A DNA stretch of 64,000 nucleotides. Source: a virus. The notes below the pieces were generated by a model that did not search any database, was not told where the DNA came from, and saw nothing but the letters and a program-made list of their open reading frames with translations. The stretch spans positions 1-64,000 of IMG/VR virus record IMGVR_UViG_3300008261_000018. One strand, 5' to 3'. The position numbers were made by a program, and so were the translations under genes. Positions 5,819 to 20,082 of this stretch are shown here, piece by piece (positions within the stretch are counted from its first letter, which is position 1; every line of letters starts with the position of its first letter).

Positions 5819-6415
5819 ATGGCAACCCGCATCGTCACAACAGACCCCAAGCAAAGCAACAAATCACCTGACTACTACTACGTCCGCTTCAACGACAAGA
5901 CTCCTACTGGAACCGAGAAAACCTTCTCCTTCCCTAAGGCTCTCGCCGGCATCATCTCCAAGAACTATATGTTCGACGACTCCGCTCTCAAGTGGATCGA
6001 CCCGGTCGGCTGGGTTCTTCAGCTCGATTTCGACGCTGCGCCAACTGAAGATCCTCAACTCCCTCCTAACCCTGAAGCCGGGTGGTCCGATCCTGACCAT
6101 CTCACTGCCATCGCTCTCCCTGAGCCAGCTCCCCAGCCCGTCATCCCGAATCGCGGCGTGACTCCGCAGACCGCGCGCAAACATGCCGCTGCTGCACTGG
6201 CTGCCGAGCACAACTTGCCGGTCGAATTCCTCGAGCGGCTCTGGCTCTTGGGCCGGGGGCAGAACTTCATGGCCAAGCTGATCGGCGTCAGCGAGAAGCC
6301 CAGGCCTGAGGTTGCTCAACGCCTCGTTGTTACCGCCTTCATCGACTACTGCAGAGGCGAAGGCGTCAACCTCGGCGAACAAGAAGAGAAGCTCCTGCGC
6401 ACCCTGGCCGGCTGA
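5819..6415 (+). CDS. Unknown protein with a C-terminal helical domain
   Basis: A 198-residue protein (MATRIVTTDPKQSNKSPDYY). The N-terminal 75 residues look like beta strands (YYYVRFNDKTPTGTEKTFSF). A Pro-rich linker follows, then a C-terminal helical domain (TARKHAAAALAAEHNLPVEF). Its stop overlaps the next gene's ATG. Function unknown. Confidence 0.55.
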   Translation: MATRIVTTDPKQSNKSPDYYYVRFNDKTPTGTEKTFSFPKALAGIISKNYMFDDSALKWIDPVGWVLQLDFDAAPTEDPQLPPNPEAGWSDPDHLTAIALPEPAPQPVIPNRGVTPQTARKHAAAALAAEHNLPVEFLERLWLLGRGQNFMAKLIGVSEKPRPEVAQRLVVTAFIDYCRGEGVNLGEQEEKLLRTLAG

Positions 6416-6627
6416 TGAATCGATCAGCTCTCTTCCGCAAGGACCCCTGCCTCAAGCTCGCCCTCGAGCTCGGTTTCACCATCACGCCCGGCCGCAGGCA
6501 CTGGCACCTCAGCCACCCGAATGGCAATCACACGATTGCTTCTTTCGGTCGCAAGCGCCACGCCCGCAGCGAACGCAACACCATGGCCGCCATCAAGCGG
6601 GCGGCCCTTCTTCCTGTAGGTCCATGA
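6415..6627 (+). CDS. HicA-like small protein
   Basis: A 70-residue basic protein. The core, LALELGFTITPGRRHWHLSH, then PNGNHTIASFGR, then a C-terminal TMAAIKRA helix, has the strand-strand-strand-helix order and the GF...GxxH signature of HicA-type toxins (double-stranded-RNA-binding fold). No HicB partner lies next to it, so a free-standing RNA-binding or nuclease-like role is more likely than a classic toxin-antitoxin pair. The family call is from pattern only. Confidence 0.5.
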   Translation: MNRSALFRKDPCLKLALELGFTITPGRRHWHLSHPNGNHTIASFGRKRHARSERNTMAAIKRAALLPVGP

Positions 6628-6785
6628 ACCACCCCTACCTCTATCCAGACGAGGCCCCCTGGACCGACGACTACTACGAACTCCGCGCCATTCGTAACCA
6701 CACCTTCAAGCCCGATGACCAACCTGAAATCACTGAAACGTACCTTGATGGCCTTTGCGCTCATGCTTCAGCCACTGAGTGCTGA
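6624..6785 (+). CDS. Small acidic Tyr-rich protein
   Basis: A 53-residue acidic protein (MNHPYLYPDEAPWTDDYYEL). It overlaps the upstream stop by 4 bases and the RlpA-like gene start by 71 bases in another frame. Not recognised; short acidic proteins in phage early regions are often inhibitors, but there is no direct evidence here. Confidence 0.45.
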   Translation: MNHPYLYPDEAPWTDDYYELRAIRNHTFKPDDQPEITETYLDGLCAHASATEC

Positions 6786-7053
6786 GGCGCGCACCGTCAC
6801 CGCCACTGTCTACGACGAGTGGTATCACGGCCGCACCGCCTACTGCGGCCAGACCTACATCCACTGGGGCGTCAGCGCCGCTCACCCCTGGCTGCCCTGC
6901 GGCACCAAGGTTCGCGTCTCTCATAAGGGCAGATCGCTGACGGTCCCGATCACGGACCGCTGCGAGTGCAATTCAATCGACCTCTCCGCCGGAGCGGCCT
7001 GGCGCCTTGGCGTCCCGCTCGACGGCATCGCTTCTGTGCAAATCAGCTACTGA
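6715..7053 (+). CDS. RlpA-like exported protein
   Basis: A 112-residue protein with an N-terminal signal peptide (MTNLKSLKRTLMAFALMLQP, cleavage likely after LSAEA) and a double-psi beta-barrel from about residue 28. The GTKVRV strand and the ITDRC motif with Asp81 match the RlpA/expansin-like active site. RlpA proteins act on peptidoglycan (glycan-strand lytic transglycosylase in some bacteria), in the periplasm. In this phage it could help lysis or alter the wall during infection. Four cysteines (YCGQ, PCGT, RCEC) could form disulfides. The position in the early-type block, away from the lysis genes, is odd. Confidence 0.75.
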   Translation: MTNLKSLKRTLMAFALMLQPLSAEARTVTATVYDEWYHGRTAYCGQTYIHWGVSAAHPWLPCGTKVRVSHKGRSLTVPITDRCECNSIDLSAGAAWRLGVPLDGIASVQISY

Positions 7054-7056
7054 TTC

Positions 7057-7464
7057 ATGAACCTCATCGCCCGCATGCTTCAGCCGCTCGTTGCCGCTGA
7101 AGTCAAACGCCAGATCAACTCGATTGACTACAGGCAAATCGCCGACTGGATGTGTGTCGTTGCCCTGGCTGAGCACATCAGTGTTCGCGGGGTCGCCGAG
7201 CAGATCGATGTCAATGACATTGCTTGCGAGCTCGATGTCAGTGACATCGCTGATGAGCTCGATCACGCCAAGGTCGCAGACGAGATCCGTCTCGACAACC
7301 TTGCCGCTGAGATCCGCCTTGACGAGCTCAGCCGCGAGATCGACTACTGCCAGCTGGCCGAGCAGGTCTCCTTCGATGACCTCGAAGCCAAGCTCGACTA
7401 CAGCCAGATCGCCAAAGAAGTCGCCATCTTCTTGTCCCGCAAACACCTTCGCTTCCATGACTGA
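7057..7464 (+). CDS. Nonapeptide-repeat protein
   Basis: A 135-residue acidic protein. From about residue 22 to 126 it is built of roughly ten tandem 9-residue units of form (I/L)Dxxx(I/L)A(D/E)E, for example IDVNDIACE, LDVSDIADE, LDHAKVADE, IRLDNLAAE, IRLDELSRE. A 9-residue period with alternating hydrophobic positions suggests a regular helical or solenoid rod. It lies 3 bases after the RlpA-like gene. Function unknown; a scaffold or spacer role is conceivable. Confidence 0.6.
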   Translation: MNLIARMLQPLVAAEVKRQINSIDYRQIADWMCVVALAEHISVRGVAEQIDVNDIACELDVSDIADELDHAKVADEIRLDNLAAEIRLDELSREIDYCQLAEQVSFDDLEAKLDYSQIAKEVAIFLSRKHLRFHD

Positions 7465-7622
7465 TGAAACCGTCAGCCAACCTCGATCGATTTGAGCGCT
7501 TCCTGATTGTCACTGCCTTGGAGTATTACATCCTTAACAAAGAGGCAGACCCCATCGCCGGTGGCGTCCCTTATCAGGAGCACATGCAACACCTACGCAG
7601 CAGGTTTCTCGCCAATGACTGA
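7464..7622 (+). CDS. Small unknown protein
   Basis: A 52-residue protein (MKPSANLDRFERFLIVTALE) whose ATG shares its first base with the previous stop. It overlaps the following gene by 8 bases. Mixed helix composition; not recognised. Confidence 0.45.
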   Translation: MKPSANLDRFERFLIVTALEYYILNKEADPIAGGVPYQEHMQHLRSRFLAND

Positions 7623-7959
7623 CCCCGCCTTCGTTTTTCTGGATCCATCCCGGAAAGAACCCATCTTTCCGGACAAGGATGCAGACATCTTTCGCTGTCT
7701 CAGAATCTCCACGCAGCACATGCCCGACCCTGACGAAGACCTTGAGGATTGGTCGTTCGGGAATCTGCACGCATTCGGTCTCCAATGGTTTTTCGCTTAC
7801 GAAGAACAATACATTCTCTGCAATGACAAGGCAGATAAGCCAATCCCGGATTGGCTCTTCAATATCTGTATCGCCGCAAGAGAAATGTATGACTGCGAAT
7901 TCATCCTCCTTGACCCCAGTACAGCGCCCCTTGACATCTTCCCCACTTATGACCACTAA
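7615..7959 (+). CDS. Unknown acidic protein
   Basis: A 114-residue acidic, aromatic-rich protein starting MTDPAFVFLDPSRKEP. The MTDPAF start recurs in the gene at 8082, which hints at local duplication of gene starts. It overlaps the next gene by 11 bases. Not recognised. Confidence 0.5.
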   Translation: MTDPAFVFLDPSRKEPIFPDKDADIFRCLRISTQHMPDPDEDLEDWSFGNLHAFGLQWFFAYEEQYILCNDKADKPIPDWLFNICIAAREMYDCEFILLDPSTAPLDIFPTYDH

Positions 7960-8089
7960 TCACTGGGACAGTCATCCCGACTTCCCCGTCGAAGACTGGC
8001 GGTACGAAGTCGCAAACAACGATACGCGACTCGGCTACCAGGATTGGCTTGAGTCTCGCCTTGAACTTGCATCCGAAGACAATGACTGA
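7949..8089 (+). CDS. Small acidic protein
   Basis: A 46-residue protein (MTTNHWDSHPDFPVEDWRYE), Asp/Trp-rich, overlapping both neighbours by 8-11 bases in a tight chain of small plus-strand genes. No family recognised. Confidence 0.45.
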   Translation: MTTNHWDSHPDFPVEDWRYEVANNDTRLGYQDWLESRLELASEDND

Positions 8090-8411
8090 CCCCGCCTTCA
8101 ACCTCGCTCAACTCGAGCAAAGACCCAACTGGTACCAACACCTAGACGCCGTGGAAAACGCTATCGCAGCAGAAGATGAGCTCTACCGCATTCGCTGGCA
8201 GGCCGGCTGGACCTGCGACGAGGGCGGCTGGTACGCACCCGACTGCACCCATGAGTACGACTGGATCCTCTGCGGGTATCCCTTCCCAGAGGAACCTGGC
8301 TATCAGGAATGGGCCGATGCCTTCTGGCATTACGAGCGTCTCGACAGCGAGCAGCACGCCGATCCCACTGGATCTAGCGTGAACGCTGAGTCGCACAGCC
8401 ACCCTGAATAA
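8082..8411 (+). CDS. Unknown Trp/Tyr-rich acidic protein
   Basis: A 109-residue protein (MTDPAFNLAQLEQRPNWYQH). The middle part is rich in Trp, Tyr, Asp and Glu. It shares the first six residues with the gene at 7615. Not recognised. Confidence 0.5.
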   Translation: MTDPAFNLAQLEQRPNWYQHLDAVENAIAAEDELYRIRWQAGWTCDEGGWYAPDCTHEYDWILCGYPFPEEPGYQEWADAFWHYERLDSEQHADPTGSSVNAESHSHPE

Positions 8412-8442
8412 CCACGAAGCCAACCAGCGCGCGCAGGTTCCG

Positions 8443-8643
8443 ATGTACGACCTCCTCGACATCGCCTGCGCCGCCCAGGCCGCCCTGGAGCACGAGAAGA
8501 TCTCTGAAAAGGAATACGCCTTCAAGCACGTCCTCAACCGAGTCTTCGGCTACATGACTCCCGAGGCCAAGGCCGAGTTCAACGAATGGGTCGACCGCAA
8601 GGGTTGGCGCGCCAAAGAAACCATCATCCTCTCGACTACATGA
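8443..8643 (+). CDS. Small helical protein
   Basis: A 66-residue protein (MYDLLDIACAAQAALEHEKI) with an Ala/Glu-rich helical pattern. Its end overlaps the next start. No family recognised. Confidence 0.45.
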   Translation: MYDLLDIACAAQAALEHEKISEKEYAFKHVLNRVFGYMTPEAKAEFNEWVDRKGWRAKETIILSTT

Positions 8644-8834
8644 ACCTTGACCAGATCCGCGCGTCAGTTGACGCCGGGCGCACCGTCTTTTGGCGTCACA
8701 AGTCCTACCGCGTCGTCAAATCACCGACTGCTGACGCCTACCTCGTCTGCCACAACAACGGTCAGTGCTTCTCCATCACTGGCCCCGATGGCAAGACACT
8801 CCTCTGCAACGAATTCGACTTCTCACTGAACTGA
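8640..8834 (+). CDS. Small beta-rich protein
   Basis: A 64-residue protein (MNLDQIRASVDAGRTVFWRH) with several short strand-like segments. It lies immediately before the oxygenase gene (8-base gap). Not recognised. Confidence 0.45.
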   Translation: MNLDQIRASVDAGRTVFWRHKSYRVVKSPTADAYLVCHNNGQCFSITGPDGKTLLCNEFDFSLN

Positions 8835-8842
8835 GATCGCCC

Positions 8843-9604
8843 ATGGATCTGACCCTTCTCGCTGGGCGCTACAACGCCCTCAGCAACGACGCCTACCACG
8901 CCTTCAGGCGCTCGACTGAGAGCGGAGAAGATCCATGGACCGCAGCCATCAACGCAGCCAGAGTTCCCGACGACGAGTGGTCGCGCTGGAATGATCCGCC
9001 GATCCTCCTGCGTGACCACAAGCCCAGGGCCTGGCGCGTTGATACCGACTTCATCGACATCCTCGAGATCCCGTCCTTCCTCTCACTCATCGAGTGCCAG
9101 CGGCTGATCGACGTCATCGACTCCTCGCTCAGCCCCTCACTCGTTACCCACGGCCCAGACGACTACCGCACCAGCTCCACCTGCTATCTCGATAGCGCCG
9201 ACCCTGACCTCACCGACCAGCTCGACCAGCGCTTCGCTGATCTGCTGGGTGTCCCGCCCAGCTTCTCCGAGTCACTGCAGGGCGCCCGCTACGACAAAGG
9301 CCAGTACTTCAAGGAGCACCACGACTGGTTCGACCCGCACCACTACACCTGGCTCGAGCACGGCAACCTCGGCCAGCGCACCTGGACCGTCATGGTCTAT
9401 CTCAACACCGTGGAGCAAGGCGGCGAGACCTACTTCCCTGAGATCGAGCGCGCCTTTGCTCCCATTGCCGGCACCGCCCTGGCCTGGAACAACCTCTACG
9501 AAGACGGCACACCCAACGAGGACACCCTGCACGAAGCACGGCCCGTCCTCGCCGGACGTAAATACGTCATCACCAAGTGGTTCCGTTCCAAGCCGGCGGC
9601 CTAA
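8843..9604 (+). CDS. Prolyl 4-hydroxylase-like 2-oxoglutarate/Fe(II) oxygenase
   Basis: A 253-residue protein. The C-terminal half is a P4H-type double-stranded beta-helix: GQYFKEHHDWFDP carries the metal-binding His-x-Asp (about residues 159-161), GGETYFPEI is the family strand, and LHEARPVLAGRKYVITKWF carries the distal His and the Lys that binds 2-oxoglutarate. It would hydroxylate a protein or peptide side chain using O2, Fe(II) and 2-oxoglutarate. Such genes are common in cyanophages. The substrate cannot be told. The ATG at 8843 was chosen over longer in-frame starts because it avoids overlap with the previous gene. Its stop overlaps the convergent Dps-like gene by 4 bases. Confidence 0.8.
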   Translation: MDLTLLAGRYNALSNDAYHAFRRSTESGEDPWTAAINAARVPDDEWSRWNDPPILLRDHKPRAWRVDTDFIDILEIPSFLSLIECQRLIDVIDSSLSPSLVTHGPDDYRTSSTCYLDSADPDLTDQLDQRFADLLGVPPSFSESLQGARYDKGQYFKEHHDWFDPHHYTWLEHGNLGQRTWTVMVYLNTVEQGGETYFPEIERAFAPIAGTALAWNNLYEDGTPNEDTLHEARPVLAGRKYVITKWFRSKPAA

Positions 9605-10113
9605 CAGCCGCGCAGGATTGCCTTGAGGAACCAGGCAGCCTTGCTCGCTGCCGCCACCAGCTCAGCCATGTAGTTCGCCACATCGATGGCGCCCACCTGC
9701 TGAGCGCTCGGCTCGATCTGCACCGCCAGGTCAGCCAGGTCGTCCAGGTTCTTCAGGTACACGGCAAGCATCTCCTTGCCGTTGTGCGATTCCACGTTCT
9801 GGAAGCAGGGCAGGGCATCCTTCAGGCCGCATGCACACATCGGCATCCAGAAGTCCTGCGCCCGCACGAACTCAGCAACGGTGTCGAACTGCTCGAGATG
9901 CGCCTCGTACTGACCCTTCAGGAACTGGTGCACATCTAAGAAGTTCGCACCCTCATAGTTCAGGTGGATCAGATGGCTCTGCGTCTCCATCTCCTTGAGG
10001 AACGCCGCCAGCATGATCAGCTGATTCACCATGCCAGCGCAGGGATTGCGCAGCTCATCGGCCTCTGCCACCACGATCGCCATGGGCTCTTGACCATGGA
10101 GCATCCCCTGCAT
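9601..10113 (-). CDS. Dps/ferritin-like protein
   Basis: A protein of about 170 residues on the opposite strand to its neighbours. The segment IHLNYEGANFLDVHQFL followed by QFDTVAEFVR aligns with the Dps signature (HWNxxGxNFxxVH ... DxxAE). His at about 48 and 61 and the distal Asp and Glu are kept, but the Asp that normally follows the second His is Lys. Dps proteins form dodecameric cages that bind DNA and oxidise Fe(II). Here one ferroxidase ligand seems lost, so it may bind DNA or another partner rather than store iron. Several start codons are possible (10113, 10104, 10083). Confidence 0.6.
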   Translation of the reverse strand: MQGMLHGQEPMAIVVAEADELRNPCAGMVNQLIMLAAFLKEMETQSHLIHLNYEGANFLDVHQFLKGQYEAHLEQFDTVAEFVRAQDFWMPMCACGLKDALPCFQNVESHNGKEMLAVYLKNLDDLADLAVQIEPSAQQVGAIDVANYMAELVAAASKAAWFLKAILRGC

Positions 10114-10149
10114 TGTCGTTCGCTCTGATCGCCAGAGCACACTCTATCC

Positions 10150-10195
10150 AGCCCCGCCAGGCAGCCCAGATCTGGGTTGTCAGGTGGGGCTTTTG
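10150..10195 (+). terminator. Rho-independent terminator upstream of a new plus-strand unit
   Basis: GCCCCGCC (10151-10158) pairs with GGTGGGGC (10183-10190), followed by TTTTG. Inside the loop CCCAGATCTGGG can form a second hairpin. It lies between two divergent genes, so its likely job is to stop plus-strand readthrough that would be antisense to the Dps-like gene. Confidence 0.65.
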
Positions 10196-10197
10196 TT

Positions 10198-10221
10198 GTG
10201 CACCGCTTCAGCGGTGCATTC
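10198..10221 (+). promoter_or_regulatory. Leader hairpin element, copy 3
   Basis: The best-paired copy: GCACCGC (10200-10206) and GCGGTGC (10211-10217) with a TTCA loop, then ATTC. It lies directly after a terminator T-run and 18 bases before the ATG at 10240. Confidence 0.55.
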
Positions 10222-10239
10222 AAGTGACCTGTCATCAGC

Positions 10240-10881
10240 ATGACTTCTGCTCTTACTCCTGCCCACTCCGACCACGAACTCACCGAGATCCGGGCCGATG
10301 GGCTCTGCCCCGCCAGCCCTCAGCCCAATGTCAAAGTCCTCGGCATCGACAACGGCCGGCTCTACTTCTATTCCGAAACCCCAGGTGGCACCAGGGATTA
10401 CCTGCCTGATGGAGCCTGCGCGATCTACGGCGCCATCCTCGATGCCTCCGTTGCCAAGTACGGCAAGGCCGGCGAGCGCAAGGGCAACACCTGGGACGCC
10501 GACCGCGACCACCTCAGCCTGCTGATCCAGTCACCGACCCTTGGCCTGCAGTACCGCCTGCTCATCCCAGCGCACGCAAGCCAAGTCTCATATCGGACTC
10601 TTCTGGGTCACCTGGTCACACTTGACCTGCGAGCCACGGCAGTCAAACTGGAAGCCAAGCCCGGCAATACGCACGGCGTCACCATCTTCAACGTCTACCT
10701 GGACCCCGTCGGCTTGCCGCAGAACCAGGTGAAGGGCAACTGGATCGGCCCCAGCACGGCCGACCTCCAGATCGCAGTTGACGCCTGCCGCCGCTCCCTT
10801 GGCCTCCCTCCTCAATTTCCCGAATGGGTGACTCCAGCATCCCCAATTCCGTCTCAGCCGAGCACCTGCAGCGACTACTGA
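10240..10881 (+). CDS. Unknown protein, first gene of a plus-strand unit
   Basis: A 213-residue protein (MTSALTPAHSDHELTEIRAD), mixed alpha/beta with a Pro-rich C-terminus. It follows leader hairpin copy 3. The last 58 bases overlap the next gene in another frame. Not recognised. Confidence 0.55.
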   Translation: MTSALTPAHSDHELTEIRADGLCPASPQPNVKVLGIDNGRLYFYSETPGGTRDYLPDGACAIYGAILDASVAKYGKAGERKGNTWDADRDHLSLLIQSPTLGLQYRLLIPAHASQVSYRTLLGHLVTLDLRATAVKLEAKPGNTHGVTIFNVYLDPVGLPQNQVKGNWIGPSTADLQIAVDACRRSLGLPPQFPEWVTPASPIPSQPSTCSDY

Positions 10882-11408
10882 GTCGCACGCTGGAGCTGCC
10901 GAACTCCGACGTGATCCCCGAGCTCAACCTTGGCGATGGCGATCAGGCCCCTGGCGGTATCTGCGATCTGCAGGTCCCGCTCATGCAGATCATCAACCGC
11001 TCGGCGCATGGGACCAACCTCATGCAGGAGTTCACCGCAGCCCTGTATCTGCTGCACTCCGTCGGCGAATGCCTGCAGCGGCGGCAGAAGCAAGCCAAGG
11101 CAAACACCGAGCCATTCAACCGGCTCAGTATGTCGGAGCGCCTCGAGATCCTCGAGGTTCTGAACGAATACATCACCGTTCACTCCGCCATTGTTCAACT
11201 CGCAGAGCGGCTACATGTCGCTTTCATGATGGGCTCCAGCCAGGAAACCATCATCAATATCCGTAAGCGACTTGGCGATGAAGCCTCTCTTGAAGAGGTC
11301 CGCAGTCACCTGATGGTTGGCGACGGCTTACTGCAATCGCTCGGTATCGAGCGCAGCACCTTCACCGACTACATCAACAAGTTCGATCAGTTCGATCACC
11401 TCAGTTAA
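10824..11408 (+). CDS. Unknown helical protein
   Basis: A 194-residue protein (MGDSSIPNSVSAEHLQRLLS) predicted to be mostly helical, with SERLEILEVLNEYITVHSAI in the middle. It lies just upstream of the DUF932 gene and is probably co-transcribed with it. No family recognised. Confidence 0.5.
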   Translation: MGDSSIPNSVSAEHLQRLLSRTLELPNSDVIPELNLGDGDQAPGGICDLQVPLMQIINRSAHGTNLMQEFTAALYLLHSVGECLQRRQKQAKANTEPFNRLSMSERLEILEVLNEYITVHSAIVQLAERLHVAFMMGSSQETIINIRKRLGDEASLEEVRSHLMVGDGLLQSLGIERSTFTDYINKFDQFDHLS

Positions 11409-11432
11409 CACCCACTTCGTCCTTTCTCAACC

Positions 11433-12446
11433 ATGTCCTACAACCTCACCAAGTCCGACCGCAAGCTGTTCCGTGGCAATGCAGCTGGTGTTGACGGCTC
11501 CATGGATACCACCTCCATGCTTGAGCTGGTCAACGGCAACTTCGAGATCATCAACGAGCCCTGCCACGGCTCTGATGGCCGGGCTTACAACGATCACCGC
11601 CTCTGGCTGCGCAGCGACAACCGCGATGCCCTCGGCCAGTTCGGCACCCTGCGTGTCCCGCAGCAACCCACCAGCGTTGTCCAGCACTACAAGGACTTCT
11701 GCGCCAGCTCCGAGAAGGCCGTCACCCTCGATGTGATCGGCACGATCGACGGCGGCAAGGTCTTCTACATGGCCTCCAAACTCCACGGCAACAACGCTGC
11801 GCTGCTGGACCAGGAGACCTACGGCGACGGCGGCGGCCTCGCGATCTCCCGCCGTGGCACCAGTCAATACATCGCCAGCGAGGACCGCACCGATCACTGG
11901 CTGATGCTCATGACCCACTACGGCAAGGCCCTCGCCACCACTGCCACGGTCGTCTCGCTCGAGCTGGTCTGCAGCAATGGCATGACCCGCCGTCACATCG
12001 ACCAGAAGCTCAGCCTCTCTAACCGGATGATGCAGGACTCGATCCGAGTCGGCGACATATTGAACCGAGCCCTGCGTAACGCACGGGCCTACGAGTTCAT
12101 GAAGAACCGCTTTGTCGAGACACCCCTCACCATCGCCGAGGGCATCAATGCCATCCGCCACTTCCATGGCGATCCCGATGGCCAGAGCCGCACGGTCAAG
12201 AACCTCGAGCGCATCTACCGCCACGAACTGATCGGCGGCGAACTCGATACCCGTCAAGACAACGTCTGGCGCCTGCTCAGTGCTCAGACCCAGTACACCA
12301 GCCACTCGCGTATCTGCCGGGCTGACGGCGGCAAGACCCTGCTCTCCCAGGTCGAGGGCTCCAAGGCGCAGTCCAACCGCAAGTTCCTCGACTTCCTCGA
12401 GGCCCAGTTCGCTCCTGAACTCAGCGCCCAGCTCGCACTGGTCTGA
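11433..12446 (+). CDS. DUF932-type phage/plasmid-like protein
   Basis: A 337-residue protein. The pattern LRVPQQPTSVVQHYKDF, GGKVFYMASKLHG, THYGKALATTATVVSLELVC and CSNGMTR matches the DUF932 (phage/plasmid-like, TIGR03299-like) family, which is widespread on plasmids and phages and is of unknown biochemical role. Length is normal for the family. A terminator follows its stop. Confidence 0.7.
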   Translation: MSYNLTKSDRKLFRGNAAGVDGSMDTTSMLELVNGNFEIINEPCHGSDGRAYNDHRLWLRSDNRDALGQFGTLRVPQQPTSVVQHYKDFCASSEKAVTLDVIGTIDGGKVFYMASKLHGNNAALLDQETYGDGGGLAISRRGTSQYIASEDRTDHWLMLMTHYGKALATTATVVSLELVCSNGMTRRHIDQKLSLSNRMMQDSIRVGDILNRALRNARAYEFMKNRFVETPLTIAEGINAIRHFHGDPDGQSRTVKNLERIYRHELIGGELDTRQDNVWRLLSAQTQYTSHSRICRADGGKTLLSQVEGSKAQSNRKFLDFLEAQFAPELSAQLALV

Positions 12447-12460
12447 TCACAAACCAACAC

Positions 12461-12486
12461 GGGTCGCTTGCGCGGCCCTTTCTTTG
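12461..12486 (+). terminator. Probable rho-independent terminator
   Basis: GGGTCGC (12461-12467) and GCGGCCC (12472-12478) form a 7-bp stem (one G-T pair) with a 4-base loop, followed by TTTCTTT. Confidence 0.65.
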
Positions 12487-12493
12487 ACCCATC

Positions 12494-12697
12494 ATGCAAG
12501 ACATGTCACACACCGTGATCGCCCCTTACCGCAGCCACCTCGTCACTGACGACATGATCGACGACTACGTCAACTACCGCAGAGCCGTAGCCAAGAACTG
12601 CCCGCGCTATGGCGCCGAGCCGCTGTTCTTCCACCAGTGGTTCGACAACCTCTGGCAAGCCGCCCCCGTTGATCTCCTGGTGGGGCGCAATGACTAG
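12494..12697 (+). CDS. Small unknown protein
   Basis: A 67-residue protein (MQDMSHTVIAPYRSHLVTDD); the ATG at 12503 is an alternative start. Rich in aromatic residues near the C-terminus (FFHQWFDNLW). It overlaps the next gene by 8 bases. Not recognised. Confidence 0.45.
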   Translation: MQDMSHTVIAPYRSHLVTDDMIDDYVNYRRAVAKNCPRYGAEPLFFHQWFDNLWQAAPVDLLVGRND

Positions 12698-12893
12698 CAG
12701 CACCCTCGAGAAGATCGCCACCATCGCGGTCTTCGTCTTTGCCGCCAGCGTCCTTGTCGCCACACCCTGGCCGGATATCGACGAGCTGCTCGGGATTGAT
12801 CCCGCCATCAGTAACCGATACAAGGCCTGTCTTTCACTCCCTAAACCACACCCCGACTGTCCAGCCATCCATGGCACCCGGCCTCAGCCCTGA
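12690..12893 (+). CDS. Small protein with one membrane segment
   Basis: A 67-residue protein with an N-terminal hydrophobic segment (IATIAVFVFAASVLVATPW, about residues 9-27) that would span the inner membrane or act as an uncleaved signal. The rest is short and polar. Function unknown. Confidence 0.45.
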   Translation: MTSSTLEKIATIAVFVFAASVLVATPWPDIDELLGIDPAISNRYKACLSLPKPHPDCPAIHGTRPQP

Positions 12894-13320
12894 CGACGTC
12901 GCCCTCATCCTCACCTCCCCCCAGCCAGCCGCTGCCATTGGCCGCCAGCTGGGGGTTTCCCATCAAACCATTTGCGATGTTCGCAACAACAAGACCCATC
13001 GCTCTGTTCACCCGGAGCTGCCACGCACGAACAAGTACGCCACCCGCAGACTCAACCCCGAGCAGGTCGCCTACATCCGCAACTCAGGGGAATCACTCTC
13101 AACACTGAGCAAGCGGTTCAACGTCTCGAACCGCACCATCCTCTCGGCCAAGCGAGGCGAGACCTATAGGGAACTTGCCAACGGCGCTCCTCGCTCAAGC
13201 ACCGAACCCCATTGCCTCAATTGCAAGCACTGGGATTCCGGCTGTGGTCTTGGCTTCCCTGAAGCACTCGAAGACCTCAGCTTCGCCGCTGAATGCAGCC
13301 TCTTCGATTTACCGGCCTGA
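12871..13320 (+). CDS. Helix-turn-helix protein with a Cys-rich tail
   Basis: A 149-residue protein with two helix-turn-helix-like segments: AAAIGRQLGVSHQTICDVRN near residue 18 and TLSKRFNVSNRTILSAKRG near residue 75. Each resembles DNA-recognition helices of homing endonuclease C-termini and of resolvase-like proteins. The C-terminus has CLNCKHWDSGCG and a later Cys, a possible zinc site. Probably DNA-binding; it could be a regulator or an endonuclease remnant. Confidence 0.5.
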   Translation: MAPGLSPDDVALILTSPQPAAAIGRQLGVSHQTICDVRNNKTHRSVHPELPRTNKYATRRLNPEQVAYIRNSGESLSTLSKRFNVSNRTILSAKRGETYRELANGAPRSSTEPHCLNCKHWDSGCGLGFPEALEDLSFAAECSLFDLPA

Positions 13321-13323
13321 GCC

Positions 13324-13500
13324 ATGACCATCGATCTCATCAGGCATCAGCGACTCAAGGTGATCCTCCCCGACGGATCGCACCTTTTCCTGGATCACAC
13401 CGACGGCAACCTTCACCTTGAACGCAAAGTCGATGGACGGCTCGACACCCTCATTCGCATCCCTCTCGACGATCACGATAGGCCTACGGGATCCAGCTGA
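13324..13500 (+). CDS. Small beta-rich protein
   Basis: A 58-residue protein (MTIDLIRHQRLKVILPDGSH) with a clear beta pattern. It starts 4 bases after the previous stop. A 3' overlap with the next frame is likely. Not recognised. Confidence 0.45.
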   Translation: MTIDLIRHQRLKVILPDGSHLFLDHTDGNLHLERKVDGRLDTLIRIPLDDHDRPTGSS

Positions 13501-13639
13501 CCTAGCCCTTATCCGCAGGGCCCTAATGCAACTTCCTCGCCTCGATCCTGATAGCAGCACTGCCGTCATGGAGCTTTTGTTGCATATCCATGACACAGAG
13601 CAACACCACTCACAAGACCTCCCCAAGTTCTTCTTCTGA
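13418..13639 (+). CDS. Possible small protein overlapping its neighbours
   Basis: An open frame of up to 73 residues. Only its C-terminal part (LRDPADLALIRRALMQLPRL and on) has a coding-like composition. No good start codon or ribosome site lies after the end of the preceding gene, so the start is uncertain. Weak call. Confidence 0.3.
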   Translation: MNAKSMDGSTPSFASLSTITIGLRDPADLALIRRALMQLPRLDPDSSTAVMELLLHIHDTEQHHSQDLPKFFF

Positions 13640-13958
13640 AATGACCATTCCCGGCCCCAGTTACTCCAACACCAAGAACGTCTCACGCATCGAACGCTGG
13701 CTCAAACTAACCGGCAGGCCTCACTCCATTCGTGGTGCCAGTCCTTATCGCGGCGTCTCTAAAAACAACGGCAACCCCGAGTTTCCCTGGCGCGCATCAC
13801 TCAAGTACCAGGGTCGCACCTACCACGGTGGCAATTTCGCCACACAAGAGGAAGCAGCTGCAGCCTGGAACCGCTTGGTCCTTCGCTACATCGGCCCAGA
13901 AGCTGAGCCCCGCCTTAACCCCGTCGACCTCCCCATCGCAAGTGAGATCAATGACTGA
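13590..13958 (+). CDS. AP2-domain protein
   Basis: A 122-residue protein. Residues about 50-110 (SPYRGVSKNNGNPEFPWRAS, then GRTYHGGNFATQEEAAAAWN) fit the three-strand plus helix AP2/ERF DNA-binding domain, including YRGV, WRA and the F-x-T-xEEAAxAxN helix. In phages AP2 domains usually occur with HNH nucleases in homing endonucleases. No HNH motif is visible here, so this is a stand-alone DNA-binding protein or a remnant. The ATG at 13641 is an alternative start. Confidence 0.75.
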   Translation: MTQSNTTHKTSPSSSSEMTIPGPSYSNTKNVSRIERWLKLTGRPHSIRGASPYRGVSKNNGNPEFPWRASLKYQGRTYHGGNFATQEEAAAAWNRLVLRYIGPEAEPRLNPVDLPIASEIND

Positions 13959-14271
13959 GCACTACCTCACCAAGCTGACCATCAGCATCGACTACTCCGG
14001 TGGCGACTCACTTGATGACACCGGCCCGATCAAGACAGTGATCGAGACCGACATGACGGACTGCTCGGTTCACGCCTGGTACAAGGTATTCGAGCAAGTC
14101 CTGCACCTCGCCGGGTTCCAGGACCGCGTGATCATGAGCGGCGCAACGCAGCTTGCGTTCAATGAGATGCGCGACATCAAGGACATGCGCACAACAGCCA
14201 AGTTCTACGACCTCAAGCTGCTCGAGGACGTTGCTGACATGCCCACCCCCGTCGATACCCCACAGTCATGA
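13951..14271 (+). CDS. Unknown protein
   Basis: A 106-residue acidic protein (MTEHYLTKLTISIDYSGGDS) with an N-terminal beta pattern and a central helix. It overlaps both neighbours by 4-8 bases. Not recognised. Confidence 0.5.
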   Translation: MTEHYLTKLTISIDYSGGDSLDDTGPIKTVIETDMTDCSVHAWYKVFEQVLHLAGFQDRVIMSGATQLAFNEMRDIKDMRTTAKFYDLKLLEDVADMPTPVDTPQS

Positions 14272-14486
14272 AACCCAAATTCGCACCTCGTGATCTCTGG
14301 CTGGACATGGAAGCGGCCTTTGATTCCGTCATGGAGGACGGCAGCGCCTATCACTTCCACGAAGCTGCGGCTGCAATGCTGCGCGTCATCGCAGTCCGCA
14401 TGGATATTCAGCAGCCCGATCATCCCTTCCTGTGGCTCAACACTGAAGCCAACAAGGCCAAGGCAGCTAAGAACTCCCCCGACTAG
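14268..14486 (+). CDS. Small helical protein
   Basis: A 72-residue protein (MKPKFAPRDLWLDMEAAFDS), probably helical, with an ATGA start overlap. It is the last gene before a 291-base structured intergenic region. Not recognised. Confidence 0.5.
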   Translation: MKPKFAPRDLWLDMEAAFDSVMEDGSAYHFHEAAAAMLRVIAVRMDIQQPDHPFLWLNTEANKAKAAKNSPD

Positions 14487-14705
14487 GCATTACTCCTAGG
14501 GTTCTCAATGATAGAGCCCAAGCCTCTGCGCGCCCTCGAGGCGTCTCACGCTTGGGCCATCAATCTTCGTCACTCGTACTTGATGGGTACTTGCTGACAG
14601 TCTTACAAGCACGTCCGTATCCCATACGGACACGTTCGTATTTACACGTACTTGTCCGTAACTCCTAATGAACTTCTAATTCTCCCCAAATTAGGAGTTG
14701 CCAGT

Positions 14706-14740
14706 ATCCCCCTGTCTTCACCGGCAGGGGGATCTTTTTG
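14706..14740 (+). terminator. Rho-independent terminator
   Basis: ATCCCCCTG (14706-14714) and CAGGGGGAT (14725-14733) form a perfect 9-bp stem followed by CTTTTTG. Confidence 0.8.
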
Positions 14741-14764
14741 TGCCGCTTTTCAGCGGTGCATTTT
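14740..14764 (+). promoter_or_regulatory. Leader hairpin element, copy 4
   Basis: GCCGC ... GCGGTGCATTTT right after a terminator T-run and 13 bases before the ATG at 14778; same core and placement as copies 1-3. Confidence 0.5.
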
Positions 14765-14777
14765 GATTCCTGCTGCG

Positions 14778-15428
14778 ATGACAGTTAGCTTCTCTTCTCT
14801 TACAGAGGTCTCACAGAACTCCAAGACCGGGCCCATCGCCGTCAGCTCCACCGGCTGGTCCAGCTGCCCGCCTGAATGCGGCATGAAGGATGAGTGCTAC
14901 GCCATGAAGGGCTACCACACCAGACTTCACGGCGATGCCATCACCCGCCACGAGCGCGGCGTCCCGCCCGATCAGTTCATCAAGCAGGTCGCTGCCCTGC
15001 GTCCCGGCACCATGTTCCGCCACAACGTCGGCGGTGACCTCTGGCACCAGCGTGGTCGCATCGATCGGACCCTGCTCAAGCTTTTAACCCAGGCTGTCCA
15101 GCACCTCTCGCATGCCTGGACTTACACGCACCACAGGCCCGACAGCTGGAACCAGTACGCCATTCGCCTTGCCAACCGCACTGGTTTCACGGTGAACGTC
15201 TCGACCGAAACCCTCGACGACGCCATCAAGTACTACCGCCGGGGCTATCCCGTCACCTGCGTGATCGACGGGAGCGATACCGCCACCTTCCGCCACAAGG
15301 GCGTCCCCTTCAAGGTCTGCGAGAACCAGGCCACCAACAAGACGACCCAGTGCTGCGGCTGCGGCAACGGCACCCCCATGTGTGCCATCCCTGATCGGGA
15401 TTACATCGTGGCCTTCATCAAGCACTGA
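14778..15428 (+). CDS. DUF7227-like Cys-rich protein
   Basis: A 216-residue protein. Its order of motifs is NSKTGPIAVSSTG, CPPECGMKDECYA, FRHNVGGDLWH, HAWTYTHH, GFTVNVSTETLDDA and a C-terminal CCGCG...C cluster. I recall this arrangement from a widespread phage family (DUF7227). Conserved cysteines at both ends suggest a metal site or Fe-S centre. Role unknown. The ATG at 14778 fits the leader hairpin arrangement; upstream in-frame starts would run through the terminator. Confidence 0.65.
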   Translation: MTVSFSSLTEVSQNSKTGPIAVSSTGWSSCPPECGMKDECYAMKGYHTRLHGDAITRHERGVPPDQFIKQVAALRPGTMFRHNVGGDLWHQRGRIDRTLLKLLTQAVQHLSHAWTYTHHRPDSWNQYAIRLANRTGFTVNVSTETLDDAIKYYRRGYPVTCVIDGSDTATFRHKGVPFKVCENQATNKTTQCCGCGNGTPMCAIPDRDYIVAFIKH

Positions 15429-15482
15429 TTCATCGACACAGCGCAAGACCAGGCATACACTTCGCCCACCCTCTCCTTTCTC

Positions 15483-15662
15483 ATGGCCAACGTCACCGTC
15501 AACCCCCTCGTCCCCGGGCTCCAGCCCGTCACCCTCGCCAATGCCACCCCTGACGCCCTCTCTGATGTCATCCGCACCTACCGCGCCAACGGCATCCCCT
15601 ACCGCATTCACTACGGCACAACCAAGCACTACCCCATCGCAGCCAGCTTCATCAGTCGCTGA
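15483..15662 (+). CDS. Small protein
   Basis: A 59-residue protein (MANVTVNPLVPGLQPVTLAN) with a compact alpha/beta pattern. Not recognised. Confidence 0.45.
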   Translation: MANVTVNPLVPGLQPVTLANATPDALSDVIRTYRANGIPYRIHYGTTKHYPIAASFISR

Positions 15663-15663
15663 G

Positions 15664-15849
15664 CTGCAACTGAGCGCCCACTGCGTCTATCGCTACTGGG
15701 CAGCACTGCAGGACATCCTGCACCGCGAAGCAGCGACCGAGGAGCTCAATGACTCCACCGGTCGCCGCTATACCGCAGCTCAGTGGTACCGAATCCTCAA
15801 CCCCTACATGGAGCAGATGATGGCGCCACCACCGAGGGGCGACATCTGA
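15664..15849 (+). CDS. Possible small protein with a CTG start
   Basis: The frame from 15664 (LQLSAHCVYRYWAALQDILH) reads as a convincing 61-residue helical protein ending at 15849, but no ATG, GTG or TTG precedes it in frame after the previous gene. The CTG lies one base after the upstream stop, so re-initiation by coupling is possible. It overlaps the end of a convergent gene. Confidence 0.35.
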   Translation: MQLSAHCVYRYWAALQDILHREAATEELNDSTGRRYTAAQWYRILNPYMEQMMAPPPRGDI

Positions 15850-15982
15850 ACACCACACCGTCAACAGCGCAGGCGGGCAGGGCCCCCAGCCCGTCTACCT
15901 GTTGGCAGCGCTCCACATGACGCAAGGCCTGCGCACGATCGTTCTGCTGGCGCATCAGCCAGCTCAAGCGAACAGCTTCCAT
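15797..15982 (-). CDS. Small unknown protein, end of minus-strand cluster
   Basis: A 61-residue protein (MEAVRLSWLMRQQNDRAQAL) with an N-terminal helix and a Cys/Val-rich tail. It starts 1 base after the stop of the upstream minus-strand gene. Not recognised. Confidence 0.45.
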   Translation of the reverse strand: MEAVRLSWLMRQQNDRAQALRHVERCQQVDGLGALPACAVDGVVFRCRPSVVAPSSAPCRG

Positions 15983-15983
15983 C

Positions 15984-16151
15984 TCAGCCCTCCAGGATTC
16001 CCCAGTGGCCGGCACGTCCGCTGCACTCGTACTTCAAGCCGCGATACGTGCACAGTTGCGGAGTCTCGCTCCGACCCCGCTTCTTCAGTTCCTCAAGGAA
16101 CTGCCGCTCAAGGGAGCTAAATCCCTTCAGCCAGGCCCGCAGAACCTGCAT
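15984..16151 (-). CDS. Small basic protein
   Basis: A 55-residue protein (MQVLRAWLKGFSSLERQFLE) with a helical first half and a CTYRGLKYECSG strand region. A Shine-Dalgarno-like GGAGGG stands 5 bases before the ATG. Too short for many gene finders. Not recognised. Confidence 0.5.
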   Translation of the reverse strand: MQVLRAWLKGFSSLERQFLEELKKRGRSETPQLCTYRGLKYECSGRAGHWGILEG

Positions 16152-16226
16152 CACACGCCCTCCAAACGCGGCATCCCCGTCGTCTGATGCCGTGATTGCA
16201 GCCCGAAGGCTCGACGATTTCCATCA

Positions 16227-16245
16227 CTCTAGGAATTTCCTAGAG
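16227..16245. promoter_or_regulatory. 19-bp palindrome
   Basis: CTCTAGGAA-T-TTCCTAGAG is a perfect inverted repeat with 9-base arms and a single central base. It contains the stop codon of the 34-residue membrane gene and lies before the gene starting at 16151. The near-zero loop argues for a dimeric protein-binding operator rather than an RNA hairpin. Confidence 0.45.
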
Positions 16246-16344
16246 GTCGAGCAGCATCCCAATCAACGTGACGATGATCAGCCCCAGGAGCGGCGCCGCC
16301 ATCAACGTCGCGAAGATCATCACATCGGCACTCGGCCCTTCCAT
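16240..16344 (-). CDS. 34-residue membrane protein
   Basis: The frame MEGPSADVMIFATLMAAPLL and on to LDL is almost entirely one hydrophobic segment (IFATLMAAPLLGLIIVTLIG) and would span the inner membrane. It resembles small holin-like or membrane-perturbing phage peptides only by composition. The neighbouring minus-strand genes are also small. Confidence 0.45.
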   Translation of the reverse strand: MEGPSADVMIFATLMAAPLLGLIIVTLIGMLLDL

Positions 16345-16348
16345 GGCC

Positions 16349-16672
16349 TCACAACTGGCACTGGCCAGCGCCTGGGTCGCCGCATCCGCAGTCTTGCGGC
16401 TTCTCGTCGATCAGCCCGAGCACCTTGACTCCCTCGAGCAGTTTTTCTGTTTCAGCCTCGCTAAAGAGCTCACTGAGTAGACTCTCGAGGATGAATTCAG
16501 GCTCAACCGTTTCAAGGAACTCCCACTTTGAGCCCGGTTCCCAATCCAAATCCAGGAATCTAGCCCCGCTTTCTGATCGATAGCAGCGGATTGTCAGCCC
16601 ATCCTCTATCTCAAGCACCTCTTCTTCCACTGCATCATCAATGCTGTGGACTTCTACAAGGCTGTCATCCAT
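16349..16672 (-). CDS. Acidic unknown protein
   Basis: A 107-residue strongly acidic protein (MDDSLVEVHSIDDAVEEEVL) with a WEPGSKWEF segment and a Cys-containing C-terminus (CGCGDPGAGQC). It lies just before the 34-residue membrane gene on the same strand. Not recognised. Confidence 0.5.
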   Translation of the reverse strand: MDDSLVEVHSIDDAVEEEVLEIEDGLTIRCYRSESGARFLDLDWEPGSKWEFLETVEPEFILESLLSELFSEAETEKLLEGVKVLGLIDEKPQDCGCGDPGAGQCQL

Positions 16673-16710
16673 TGCTGGACTCCGATTTTGTTCACTCTAA
16701 GGAGATCTCC

Positions 16711-16926
16711 ATGCTGCTAACCACAGCCAAGCTCTCGTTCATTAGCCTCACCCCGATCGCTTCGCTTGATCTGCCGCCTCAGATGCAGGTACCCGCCATC
16801 ACCGCTCAGGCGTCCGTATCCTCCACGGCAGACAGCTCGCTGAAGACCGTCTCGACCGAAGCAAACAAGAACTTCCCTTCCTCGCTCACCACCACATACG
16901 CCTCTCCTTCGGCGATCGACTCGTAG
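16711..16926 (+). CDS. Possible small protein antisense to the AbrB-like gene
   Basis: An open frame of 71 codons with a strong Shine-Dalgarno (TAAGGAGAT, 5 bases before ATG) and a plausible start MLLTTAKLSFISLTPIASLD. Its second half is antisense to the AbrB-like gene and Ser/Thr-rich, so only the start signal speaks for it. Confidence 0.3.
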   Translation: MLLTTAKLSFISLTPIASLDLPPQMQVPAITAQASVSSTADSSLKTVSTEANKNFPSSLTTTYASPSAIDS

Positions 16927-17114
16927 TAGTCATCAAACCAAAGACTCAAGTCCATGGGGCTGATCTCGGCGCAACGCTTGACCGAGACAGCCCCTTTTTC
17001 TATGCGGCGCCAGTGCAGCACATCACCGCTCTTCCAGCCCAGGTCTCGCGTGACCTCCTCGGGCAGCTGCAGCACACCGTTGTCCTGCACTTGGATTGTC
17101 CAGGTCTTGTTCAT
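16806..17114 (-). CDS. AbrB/MazE-type DNA-binding protein
   Basis: A 102-residue protein. Residues about 3-47 (WTIQVQDNGVLQLPEEVTRD, then GWKSGDVLHWRR) match the swapped-hairpin AbrB/MazE fold (V...G.v.lP.e....lgw..Gd.l.w). The C-terminal half is acidic with LWFDDYYESIAEGEAYVVVS. Such proteins act as dimeric DNA-binding antitoxins or transition regulators. No toxin is recognisable beside it. It may regulate this minus-strand cluster, perhaps via the palindrome at 16227. Confidence 0.6.
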   Translation of the reverse strand: MNKTWTIQVQDNGVLQLPEEVTRDLGWKSGDVLHWRRIEKGAVSVKRCAEISPMDLSLWFDDYYESIAEGEAYVVVSEEGKFLFASVETVFSELSAVEDTDA

Positions 17115-17116
17115 GA

Positions 17117-17377
17117 TCACTCGTCCTTGGTTTGACGGCTCAAGCTGATCAGCGTTGTCAACACGCTCATCAGTACAGCCACGCTTCTGTTGTCGCTGTC
17201 TTCGCAGCCGAGGCGGCGTGGATCCAGCTTCTCGGACACATCAGTTCCGATGTACTTGGCATAGAACGGCCACTGCCGTGGCGCCACGACGAATGCGCAG
17301 TTCATCCACTGAGCAACCGACAACGCCGCCGTTGCCAGCGCCACGCCAACGACCGAACGCCAGAGCCAATTAGGCAT
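17117..17377 (-). CDS. Small membrane protein
   Basis: An 86-residue protein with an N-terminal hydrophobic segment (WRSVVGVALATAALSVAQW) and a second hydrophobic stretch near residue 67 (SVAVLMSVLTTLISL). Probably two membrane passes. It overlaps the upstream gene by 8 bases. Holin-like by size and topology, but no family is recognised and it lies far from the lysin. Confidence 0.45.
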   Translation of the reverse strand: MPNWLWRSVVGVALATAALSVAQWMNCAFVVAPRQWPFYAKYIGTDVSEKLDPRRLGCEDSDNRSVAVLMSVLTTLISLSRQTKDE

Positions 17378-17705
17378 CGCCCTGCCGCTCGCGATACACC
17401 GTCAGCACCAGGTGGCGACCCATCAAGGCCATGTCCACCTCCTTGACGCCCGGCTGCCGCATCAATCGATTGCGGTGATAGATGCCGTCCTCGATCAACT
17501 TCGCGTACGACAGTGGCTCAGTAGATCCAGTAGCAGGCTTGGGCGCAGGAGCCGTAGGTGGTGCTTGCTCCGCACCAAGCGAATTCAGCCAATGCCACAC
17601 CAATCCCGCCACGCTGCTGGCCTGGAACCGTCCGCTTTCGCCGATCCAGTCACTCGCTATGCCGTATGAGAAGCCCAGGACGGCGATCCAATCCCGCAGC
17701 TCCAT
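17370..17705 (-). CDS. Unknown protein with Pro-rich linker
   Basis: A 111-residue protein. A hydrophobic, Trp-rich N-terminal part (residues 1-45) is joined by a Pro/Ala linker (APPTAPAPKPATGSTEP) to a C-terminal charged domain. It is the first gene of the minus-strand cluster. Not recognised. Confidence 0.45.
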   Translation of the reverse strand: MELRDWIAVLGFSYGIASDWIGESGRFQASSVAGLVWHWLNSLGAEQAPPTAPAPKPATGSTEPLSYAKLIEDGIYHRNRLMRQPGVKEVDMALMGRHLVLTVYRERQGDA

Positions 17706-17806
17706 CGCTCGCGAGCGGTGTTCCTGGGCATTCTATGAGCGCTCTGTCGGGCGAAATCTGTCATGCCTCTTAAGAGTTTTTAGGTTGAGCGTCCACCTGA
17801 AGAACG

Positions 17807-18019
17807 ATGCAGCGATACCGCGCCATCCTGATCGATACCCGCACCAACCAACCCCTCAGCCCGGACTGGCACCCGACGATTTGGCCCACCGAACTCGAAA
17901 GCGCCAATGCCAGCCTGGCCAGCCGTGACATGACTTACCGCTGGCGGTGGCTTGATCGCGTGACTACCCTTCATGGATCTGTCACCCTGCAAGCTGCAGC
18001 ACACGATGCTGACTCTTGA
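17807..18019 (+). CDS. Small unknown protein
   Basis: A 70-residue protein (MQRYRAILIDTRTNQPLSPD) opening the plus-strand replication block, divergent from the minus-strand cluster. A beta-rich small domain with two Trp residues. Its end overlaps the following gene. Not recognised. Confidence 0.45.
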   Translation: MQRYRAILIDTRTNQPLSPDWHPTIWPTELESANASLASRDMTYRWRWLDRVTTLHGSVTLQAAAHDADS

Positions 18020-18617
18020 CTCGGCGCTCATTGCGATCGTTGCCGAATTCACAGGCCCCTACGCCCCCTATCAAGGCGTAGCACTGACGCCTTGCTCGGG
18101 TGGCGGCGTCTTTGTGTCAGCAACCGACAGCGGCAAGATTGCCTGCATGGCATACGACCGCAAGGGACGCGGCGACGAATCGATCTATCTGCTGCCATCC
18201 ACTGAACTCGTTCGCAGCTGCAAAGGACTCAAGACAGCCGAACGCGAGATCACCATTGGCGACCAGACCGCCCTGATCACCACGTTTCGCAAGAGCGCAG
18301 CCAATGAGGTCAAGGAGATCCCGATCACCAAAAGCCAGACGACACCACCCCCGCTGGCCAAGATCATGCGCCACTGCATCGACACCTGGGGCGCCACTCC
18401 CGTGGCTAGCAATACCGCTGGTCGCTATGCCACGGACTATGTCGAGAAGGCGATCAAAGTCTTAAGCACGCGCGAAAAGTCGCTGGTCTTCAGCGCATTC
18501 GACGGCGGCCCCCTGCGGATCCAAAGCGACTGCGGTGACATCGTTGTCCTGGTCATGCCGCAAACAGCGGAGCCCATTCCGCCCCTACCCAGCTGGCTCG
18601 AACTGTTTGCCCAGTAA
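18006..18617 (+). CDS. Possible sliding-clamp-like protein
   Basis: A 203-residue protein. The pattern fits part of a beta-clamp fold: an N-terminal helix (LDSALIAIVAEF), strands with VFVSATDSGKIACMAY, a YLLPSTELVRSCKG helix, and near the end LVFSAFDGGPLRIQSD and DIVVLVMPQ, which recalls the VLMPMR end of DnaN. It is shorter than a bacterial DnaN (about 370 residues). Position just before SSB supports a replication role. Weak fold-level call; ATG at 17973 is an alternative start. Confidence 0.35.
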   Translation: MLTLDSALIAIVAEFTGPYAPYQGVALTPCSGGGVFVSATDSGKIACMAYDRKGRGDESIYLLPSTELVRSCKGLKTAEREITIGDQTALITTFRKSAANEVKEIPITKSQTTPPPLAKIMRHCIDTWGATPVASNTAGRYATDYVEKAIKVLSTREKSLVFSAFDGGPLRIQSDCGDIVVLVMPQTAEPIPPLPSWLELFAQ

Positions 18618-18677
18618 TGCAACCTGCTTGCCACATGCAATTTGCTGGTTAGCCTGGAGCGCACCCAAGCAACCCAC

Positions 18678-19340: not shown

Positions 19341-19346
19341 TCACCC

Positions 19347-20063: not shown

Positions 20064-20082
20064 GTCTCTTTACCAACTCCTG

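Follow-up and report, generated by a model that had tools for sequence, protein, structure and literature searches.

A repeated, oriented palindromic site at the starts of early gene units in an IMG/VR virus record

Site copies and the early units they precede

The stretch of DNA analyzed here, hereafter the window, comprises bases 1-64000 of the virus record IMGVR_UViG_3300008261_000018. The record is 85,174 bp long, with the same 114 bp at its start and at its end; it is therefore probably complete and circular in assembly. Our subject is a short plus-strand element found ahead of the first genes of early units. An original prediction had described four copies of it as a recurring leader hairpin, each following a T-run or terminator and standing 13-36 bases before the first ATG of a unit. 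All four copies are present, with cores at 18, 4025, 10209 and 14751. A T-run or terminator lies ahead of each, and the core-to-ATG gaps (20, 37, 19 and 15 bases, to ATGs at 50, 4074, 10240 and 14778) are near the predicted range.

Copy 1 (8-29, TG-N8-CAGCAGTGCATT), found by pattern scan, precedes a plus-strand gene of 45 amino acids (aa) at 50-187. Copy 2 (4015-4036) lies between divergent genes at 3399-3995 on the minus strand and 4074-4412 on the plus strand; the latter encodes 112 aa with the N-terminus MELNLGP, and has relatives in records G027, G004 and G009 at 48-51% and a weaker one in G028 (38%). Copy 3 (10199-10220, CAGCGGTGCATT) likewise separates divergent genes, at 9601-10140 (minus) and 10240-10881 (plus, 213 aa). 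Because copies 2 and 3 stand between divergent genes, transcription of the plus-strand genes must begin nearby. The like-placed copy in relatives precedes genes of 198-241 aa, with a protein match to 10240-10881 only in G009 and G029. Copy 4 (14741-14762, also CAGCGGTGCATT), again found by pattern scan, is followed by a plus-strand gene of 216 aa at 14778-15428 that belongs to Pfam family DUF7227.

The terminator scan detected an intrinsic plus-strand terminator with 11 pairs and a T-rich tail at 14706-14733, directly before copy 4. By eye, we noted two further plus-strand structures: a long inverted repeat, GCCCC...GGGGC with a T-rich tail, at 10151-10190 before copy 3, which is absent from the terminator scan list, and an inverted repeat with T-runs at 3964-4003 before copy 2, which overlaps the beginning of the gene on the minus strand.

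In the whole record, the exact 12-mer CAGCRGTGCATT occurs 13 times in forward and 0 times in reverse orientation, and a backwards control pattern occurs 0 times. The match at 85078 is the copy at 18 met again at the other record end, which leaves 12 distinct copies: the four in the window and eight outside it, at 81337, 81599, 81878, 82510, 82782, 83177, 83666 and 84041, all on the plus strand. When both strands of the record were scored with the pattern TG-N8-CANCNGTGCATT, which has 12 informative positions, 12 plus-strand and 0 minus-strand matches reached full score, and two and one, respectively, reached 11/12; background starts at 10/12, with seven matches on the plus strand and six on the minus strand. 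The two plus-strand matches at 11/12 are degenerate copies at unit starts, CAGCGGTGCATC at 82128 and CATCAGTGCCTT at 83432. All 14 copies lie on the plus strand before gene starts, in one early region that runs from 81.3 kb via the junction to 14.8 kb, and the same scoring placed none ahead of mid-operon genes. This non-random distribution, far above the control pattern, bears out the motif as originally proposed.

From 81.3 to 85.1 kb, the early region consists of consecutive small genes, every one arranged as site, gene and terminator. Terminator-like structures number 25 in this array, against 3.1 in shuffles. Strong plus-strand terminators (at least 11 pairs) are followed directly by a site in 9 of 10 cases in the array, one of three in window 1-20000 and none of two in 20001-36000. 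The exception in the array, at position 4623 of stretch L010, is followed by TTGACTCGCCAACACAGCATGC, which is possibly a decayed site. Just ahead of the array's first site, a segment of about 850 bp (record 80430-81300; L010 430-1300) shows no evident gene and is rich in GCGC-type repeats; it is a possible origin or control region. In five lower-GC stretches (L161, L162, L169, L159 and L155), the site of the array's first unit is preceded not by a terminator but by a conserved stretch like TTTGATGTTAGTNNNATGTTA.

Relatives, spellings and cassette exchange

The record encodes a terminase (68040-69572, minus strand; profile match to PF17289). Among the named phages searched, its top match is that of Synechococcus phage S-EIVl at 51% identity, and none is a close relative. 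The phage appears to be related to S-EIVl, and its host can be suggested from this nearest named phage only. One scan found terminase relatives encoded on 297 viral-contig stretches, of which we kept the best 80; relatives of this clade are common in viral metagenomes.

Sixteen phage records share the architecture, with the clade-specific spellings CAGCAGTGC, CAACAGTGC and CATCAGTAC. The form CAGCRGTGCAT was found in 11 of 30 records searched, on a single strand within each (11/11), and lineage-specific cores over the 16 records gave 127 sense versus 2 antisense matches. Individual lineages carry CAACAGTGCATT (G013, G028 and G038), CAWCAGTGCATT and CACCAGTGCATT (both G022), YAACAGTGCAW (G025) or CATCAGTACNTT (G019, G016, G017 and G036). 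Searching the viral collection with TTTTNDTG-N8-CAACAGTGCATT returned nine stretches on six contigs; five of these contigs were already among the kept terminase relatives, and the sixth, G038, has a terminase that is 82% identical. A GTAC pattern matched nine contigs, some of them chance-like, and L163, L165 and L166 had no site under a stricter pattern. No such site array was found in S-EIVl.

Near relatives of the record differ from it by whole units. Unit F (82782-83176), whose gene (L010 2811-3131) codes for a DUF4326 protein, is absent from L012 and L016, and L016 also lacks unit I (83666-84040); in each case the joints fall exactly at the site. L014 and L018 carry a replacement for unit A. 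Such site-to-site absences, together with an oriented imperfect palindrome, could point to a recombination site of an integron- or shufflon-like cassette system that is regulatory only incidentally. We consider this very unlikely: the site also stands ahead of conserved, fixed units in many lineages, and homologous recombination in the common terminator-site sequence accounts for the exchange with no recombinase needed. Units A and B have a near-identical 64-bp terminator stretch in common, as might be expected if the repeats had simply arisen when one cassette was recently duplicated in tandem. We give that explanation hardly any credence, as it is contradicted by a site that is kept ahead of unrelated, widely spaced genes in lineages of different GC content and core spelling, with differing flanks. 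Because the same terminator and site bound every cassette, small genes could be gained, lost or swapped as whole expression units.

Several other features of these genomes were recorded alongside the site. A plus-strand gene at window 8443-8643 encodes an early protein of 66 aa with 64-92% identity in eight relatives, for which we found no Pfam or PHROG match and none in named phages; G014 has this conserved protein, yet no site was seen in its stretch L151 or the near-identical L150. The minus-strand gene at 9601-10140 is ferritin-like or Dps-like and is kept across the clade and in S-EIVl (46%). Repeats of other relatives, TGACAGGGT and TATCAGTAT, were rejected as versions of the site, as they are not located at unit starts. 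On the 9.4-kb contig L017 (45.7% GC), a lone site-like copy, GTGCACAGTACAGCAGTGCATT, follows a T-rich stretch (1969-1995, minus strand) and may reflect chance or a further lineage. A host search via the terminase returned five contigs (L138-L142), all from metagenome-assembled genomes labelled Euryarchaeota or Acidimicrobiales; these are probably mis-binned viral DNA. Finally, a minus-strand group I intron (window 57953-58355; Rfam RF00028, 60.3 bits) lies close to a gene for a highly conserved late protein (58335-58778), which is 82-97% to the seven relatives matched.

Site anatomy and leader hairpins

Alignment of the cores (14 from the record itself, 29 lower-GC, 38 GC-rich and nine G019 copies) placed the strongest positions at T-10, G-9, C-6 and CANC[A/G]GTRC. 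For anatomy counts, we used 110 of the 127 matches, having dropped eight without an ATG open reading frame of at least 40 aa and nine that were non-members, edges or duplicates; copies that share a genome or come from related genomes are not independent of one another. The conserved part measures 20-22 bp, TGYMC-N10-GTRCA, with constant spacing and a single dyad axis. T-10 is kept in 107 copies, G-9 in 108 and C-6 in 98, and both the TG-N8-core spacing and the T-run register are constant in lineages of about 41 to 64% GC. The T-run ends mostly at position -12 (44/110 copies; 22 have no T-run of four), indicating that terminator and site hold register.

In a mirror test of positions -12 to -5 over the 110 copies, the axis with sum -1 gave a mean complementarity of 0.57, versus 0.13-0.27 at ten neighbouring axes. 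The pairs -10/9, -9/8 and -6/5 are kept, -8/7 is kept partly, and -7/6 is mostly non-complementary. Among lower-GC copies with an ATG within 8 nt, the first three still hold (-9/8 in 37/37, -10/9 in 32/37 and -6/5 in 31/37). The halves also shift together. Among the 88 copies with G at position 7, 42 have C and 27 have T at position -8; among the 22 with A at position 7, one has C and 18 have T there (Fisher p 1.2e-5, kinship ignored), and the change of the right half from GTGC to GTAC is accompanied by a left-half shift. An imperfect palindrome of this form combined with an oriented core is as expected for the DNA site of a dimer.

Leaders fall into two classes, with core-to-ATG distances of -3 to 8 nt in 50/110 copies and at least 13 nt in 60/110; in GC-rich lineages, wrong start codons may account for some of the negative values. 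Folding of 91 copies gave a mean z of -1.4; these were drawn from 96 rows after removal of intragenic matches (window 41292, L010 2641, G027 2302, and G028 L128 1194 and 5453). The leaders of copies 2 and 3 scored -2.24 and -2.51, and leaders in the place of copy 2 ranged from -1.6 to -3.8 across nine lineages. A stem test with shuffled flanks covered 115 copies, including one chance match (window 49470). Stems at p<=0.05 were found in the lower-GC lineages for 3/41 short-leader copies (chance level) and 11/24 long-leader copies, and in the GC-rich lineages for 9/12 and 9/38, respectively.

The hairpins that do form are of several kinds, joining the left half to the right half, enclosing the site in stems like GACCTC..GAGGTC, or pairing the core with a downstream arm. 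The GCACCGC/GCGGTGC arms of the original prediction exist at 10199-10218, and related hairpins lie at 14739-14760 and 7-28, while the copy at 4025 folds differently. We rejected a single conserved hairpin, given that pairing partners vary among copies and that lower-GC short leaders are at chance. A lineage-swap test gave no support for downstream arms being specific to their own lineage's core; the cores of other lineages fit about equally. Hairpins are thus real but optional, confined to part of the leaders. A recurring leader hairpin as the conserved entity does not survive these results, as the dyad persists where the ATG abuts the site, and stems in such copies of the lower-GC lineages are at chance.

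These data also bear on the idea that the element acts in RNA, as a leader or hairpin controlling how early mRNAs are translated or processed, or how stable they are. The above-chance stems of lower-GC long leaders, the negative mean z and the consistently negative scores in the place of copy 2 would agree with this, as would short leaders that set the core right before the ATG, the usual place of a ribosome-binding site. We nonetheless judge such a role unlikely. In addition to the chance-level stems of short leaders and the exchangeable downstream arms, the inner pair -7/6 is mostly unpaired while the outer pairs and -6/5 persist even in short leaders, and no copy precedes mid-operon genes.

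Reading of the site and its place among known systems

We favor, with about even confidence, the reading that the site is a clade-specific transcription-start site (promoter or operator) of early units, set in a composite terminator-promoter cassette. Transcription must restart past each strong terminator, and the site is the sole conserved thing in the 30-80 bp there. Of the two roles offered in the original prediction, a phage-specific promoter is the better supported, by position at unit starts after terminators, a single orientation, restriction to the early region and the lack of sigma-70 promoters nearby; the translational hairpin fares worse, as the hairpin is not the conserved part. 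Repetition, orientation, position, constant spacing, dyad symmetry, lineage spelling and cassette gain and loss are direct observations; promoter activity, a dimeric reader and a hairpin function are what they may imply.

Under the favored reading, an early unit would consist of the previous unit's terminator, TGYMC-N10-GTRCA with the one-way core CANCA, 0-60 nt, the gene or genes, and a terminator. A clade-specific dimeric phage protein, or an RNA polymerase that such a protein has modified, would read the imperfect palindrome and set the point where transcription of each small unit restarts past the terminator, with direction given by the asymmetric core. Leaders would be very short or moderate, and some moderate ones would fold as a 5' hairpin, perhaps for stability.

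An ordinary sigma-70 promoter was rejected as the basis of this activity. Predicted sigma-70 promoters number 0 in the array (L010; 0.6 in shuffles) and two in window 1-20000, versus 5.4 in shuffles, and TANNNT between T-run and core occurs in 0/14 of the record's own and 0/38 of the GC-rich copies. The core of the GTAC lineage G019 does spell TAC.TT, but its distance to the upstream TG misfits a -35/-10 arrangement. Moreover, where the start codon abuts the site, RNA cannot start downstream of the 3' end of the core, which rules out the usual sigma-70 geometry in which the core would be the -10 element. Because the spelling is uniform within a genome and differs between lineages, a phage-encoded reader is suggested. 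One candidate is a ribbon-helix-helix (CopG-like) gene on the plus strand at 2690-2971, in the stretch behind copy 1. The family occurs in 7/7 GC-rich records examined, six of them above the cut-off, and PF01402 is also found in G038; at the sensitivity used, the gene was not detected in G019, G025 or G028, and no solved relative of the protein was found. CopG is said to read TGCA boxes, which a literature search did not confirm, and we treat this protein as a lead only.

Several points weigh against a promoter. Of 15 strong plus-strand terminators in the early region, five have no site after them. Start codons that abut or overlap the site leave ordinary promoter geometry no space. A T7-like polymerase (PF00940) was not found, in a search whose control gave no signal either; a motif scan for such a polymerase, run without a positive control, was empty; and no sigma region 4 was detected. 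The co-shift of the halves may rest on one or a few evolutionary events. Finally, hairpins in some leaders suggest that the site is sometimes transcribed, so a start upstream fits better than a start within it.

Several of these features would also suit an operator bound by a phage repressor or by a roadblock protein, stoperator-like, with early units silenced and transcripts arising from other promoters or read-through. Dyad symmetry and half-site co-shift agree with this, as does the ribbon-helix-helix family in the GC-rich records, and a large serine recombinase/integrase gene (window 36466-37743, minus strand; PHROG 95) suggests a temperate phage. We nevertheless hold it to be unlikely: no separate promoters are visible next to the sites, the recombinase did not find matches in two or more of the 12 compared relatives although these keep the sites, and the candidate reader was not detected, at the sensitivity used, in three site-bearing lineages. 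Stoperators are bound by an immunity repressor and stop elongation. Cluster A mycobacteriophage stoperators are described, in the accessible part of the source, as short, oriented, genome-wide sites that are asymmetric and bound by a monomeric repressor (PMC9283540). The single orientation and pre-gene position here resemble what that part reports (PMC9283540); our sites are similarly short and oriented, in the early region, and appear to differ in having a dyad.

From sequence alone, the site picks out the early units with their small genes, which are probably host-directed. A promoter lacking sigma-70 elements would make its reader a new transcription factor or polymerase modifier, and the concerted half-site change would make site-reader coevolution directly testable. 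A bolder form of this reading, which we put forward tentatively and regard as rather doubtful, is that the clade has its own initiation code: a 20-bp palindrome with an oriented core and no -10/-35, at which a putative phage factor redirects host polymerase, yielding near-leaderless early mRNAs from an exchangeable terminator-site cassette whose spelling changes in concert per lineage, like T7 versus T3 promoters.

We did not place the element in any known system, because tests here found neither the sigma-70 feature of PeSLs nor the Shine-Dalgarno feature of SAS. A literature search turned up no title on the element in S-EIVl-like phages, with subscription papers mostly outside its reach. N4-type promoters each carry a short-stem hairpin, a trait that the chance-level stems of lower-GC short-leader copies do not match. 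Phage phiC31 has many phage-specific early promoters with conserved inverted repeats; each stands at a short unit and has a repeat that resembles an operator. The likeness is one of description, as host group and sequence differ. Intergenic repeats of halovirus HF2 also keep their position among relatives: the available part of the source describes a place conserved within the genus and shown promoters, with starts inside class I repeats (PMC8707807). Unlike our site, these are archaeal TATA-box promoters, and terminator coupling is not described in that part (PMC8707807).

The site also resembles the SAS/ESAS elements of cluster K mycobacteriophages. As far as the accessible portions of the sources go, these are short asymmetric repeats in one orientation, found where non-structural genes start; inverted repeats accompany half of them and vary in spelling among subclusters. 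The SAS sequence is GGGATAGGAGCCC, 13 bp long around a Shine-Dalgarno core, and ESAS contains a SigA-like promoter (PMC3203893, PMC11373665, PMC12699233). SAS/ESAS stand within a few bases of the start codon; our site likewise has one orientation, and its distance to the start codon is bimodal, as given above. It differs from GGGATAGGAGCCC in sequence and has no AGGAG, no SigA-like promoter is seen, and its palindrome and core form a single unit tied to terminators.

PeSLs of T4-like phages are reportedly composite promoter-terminator motifs, as Arbiol 2010 and Comeau 2014 are said to describe them. The accessible part of one source agrees with this description (PMC4503421). As in PeSLs, a terminator stem-loop and a start element are joined here in the gaps separating small early genes: the terminator lies directly upstream, at the array and window frequencies given above, and cassettes differ between relatives and shuffle with their joints at the element. 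Unlike in PeSLs, the start element is no sigma-70-type early promoter; it is dyad-symmetric and has a clade-specific spelling.

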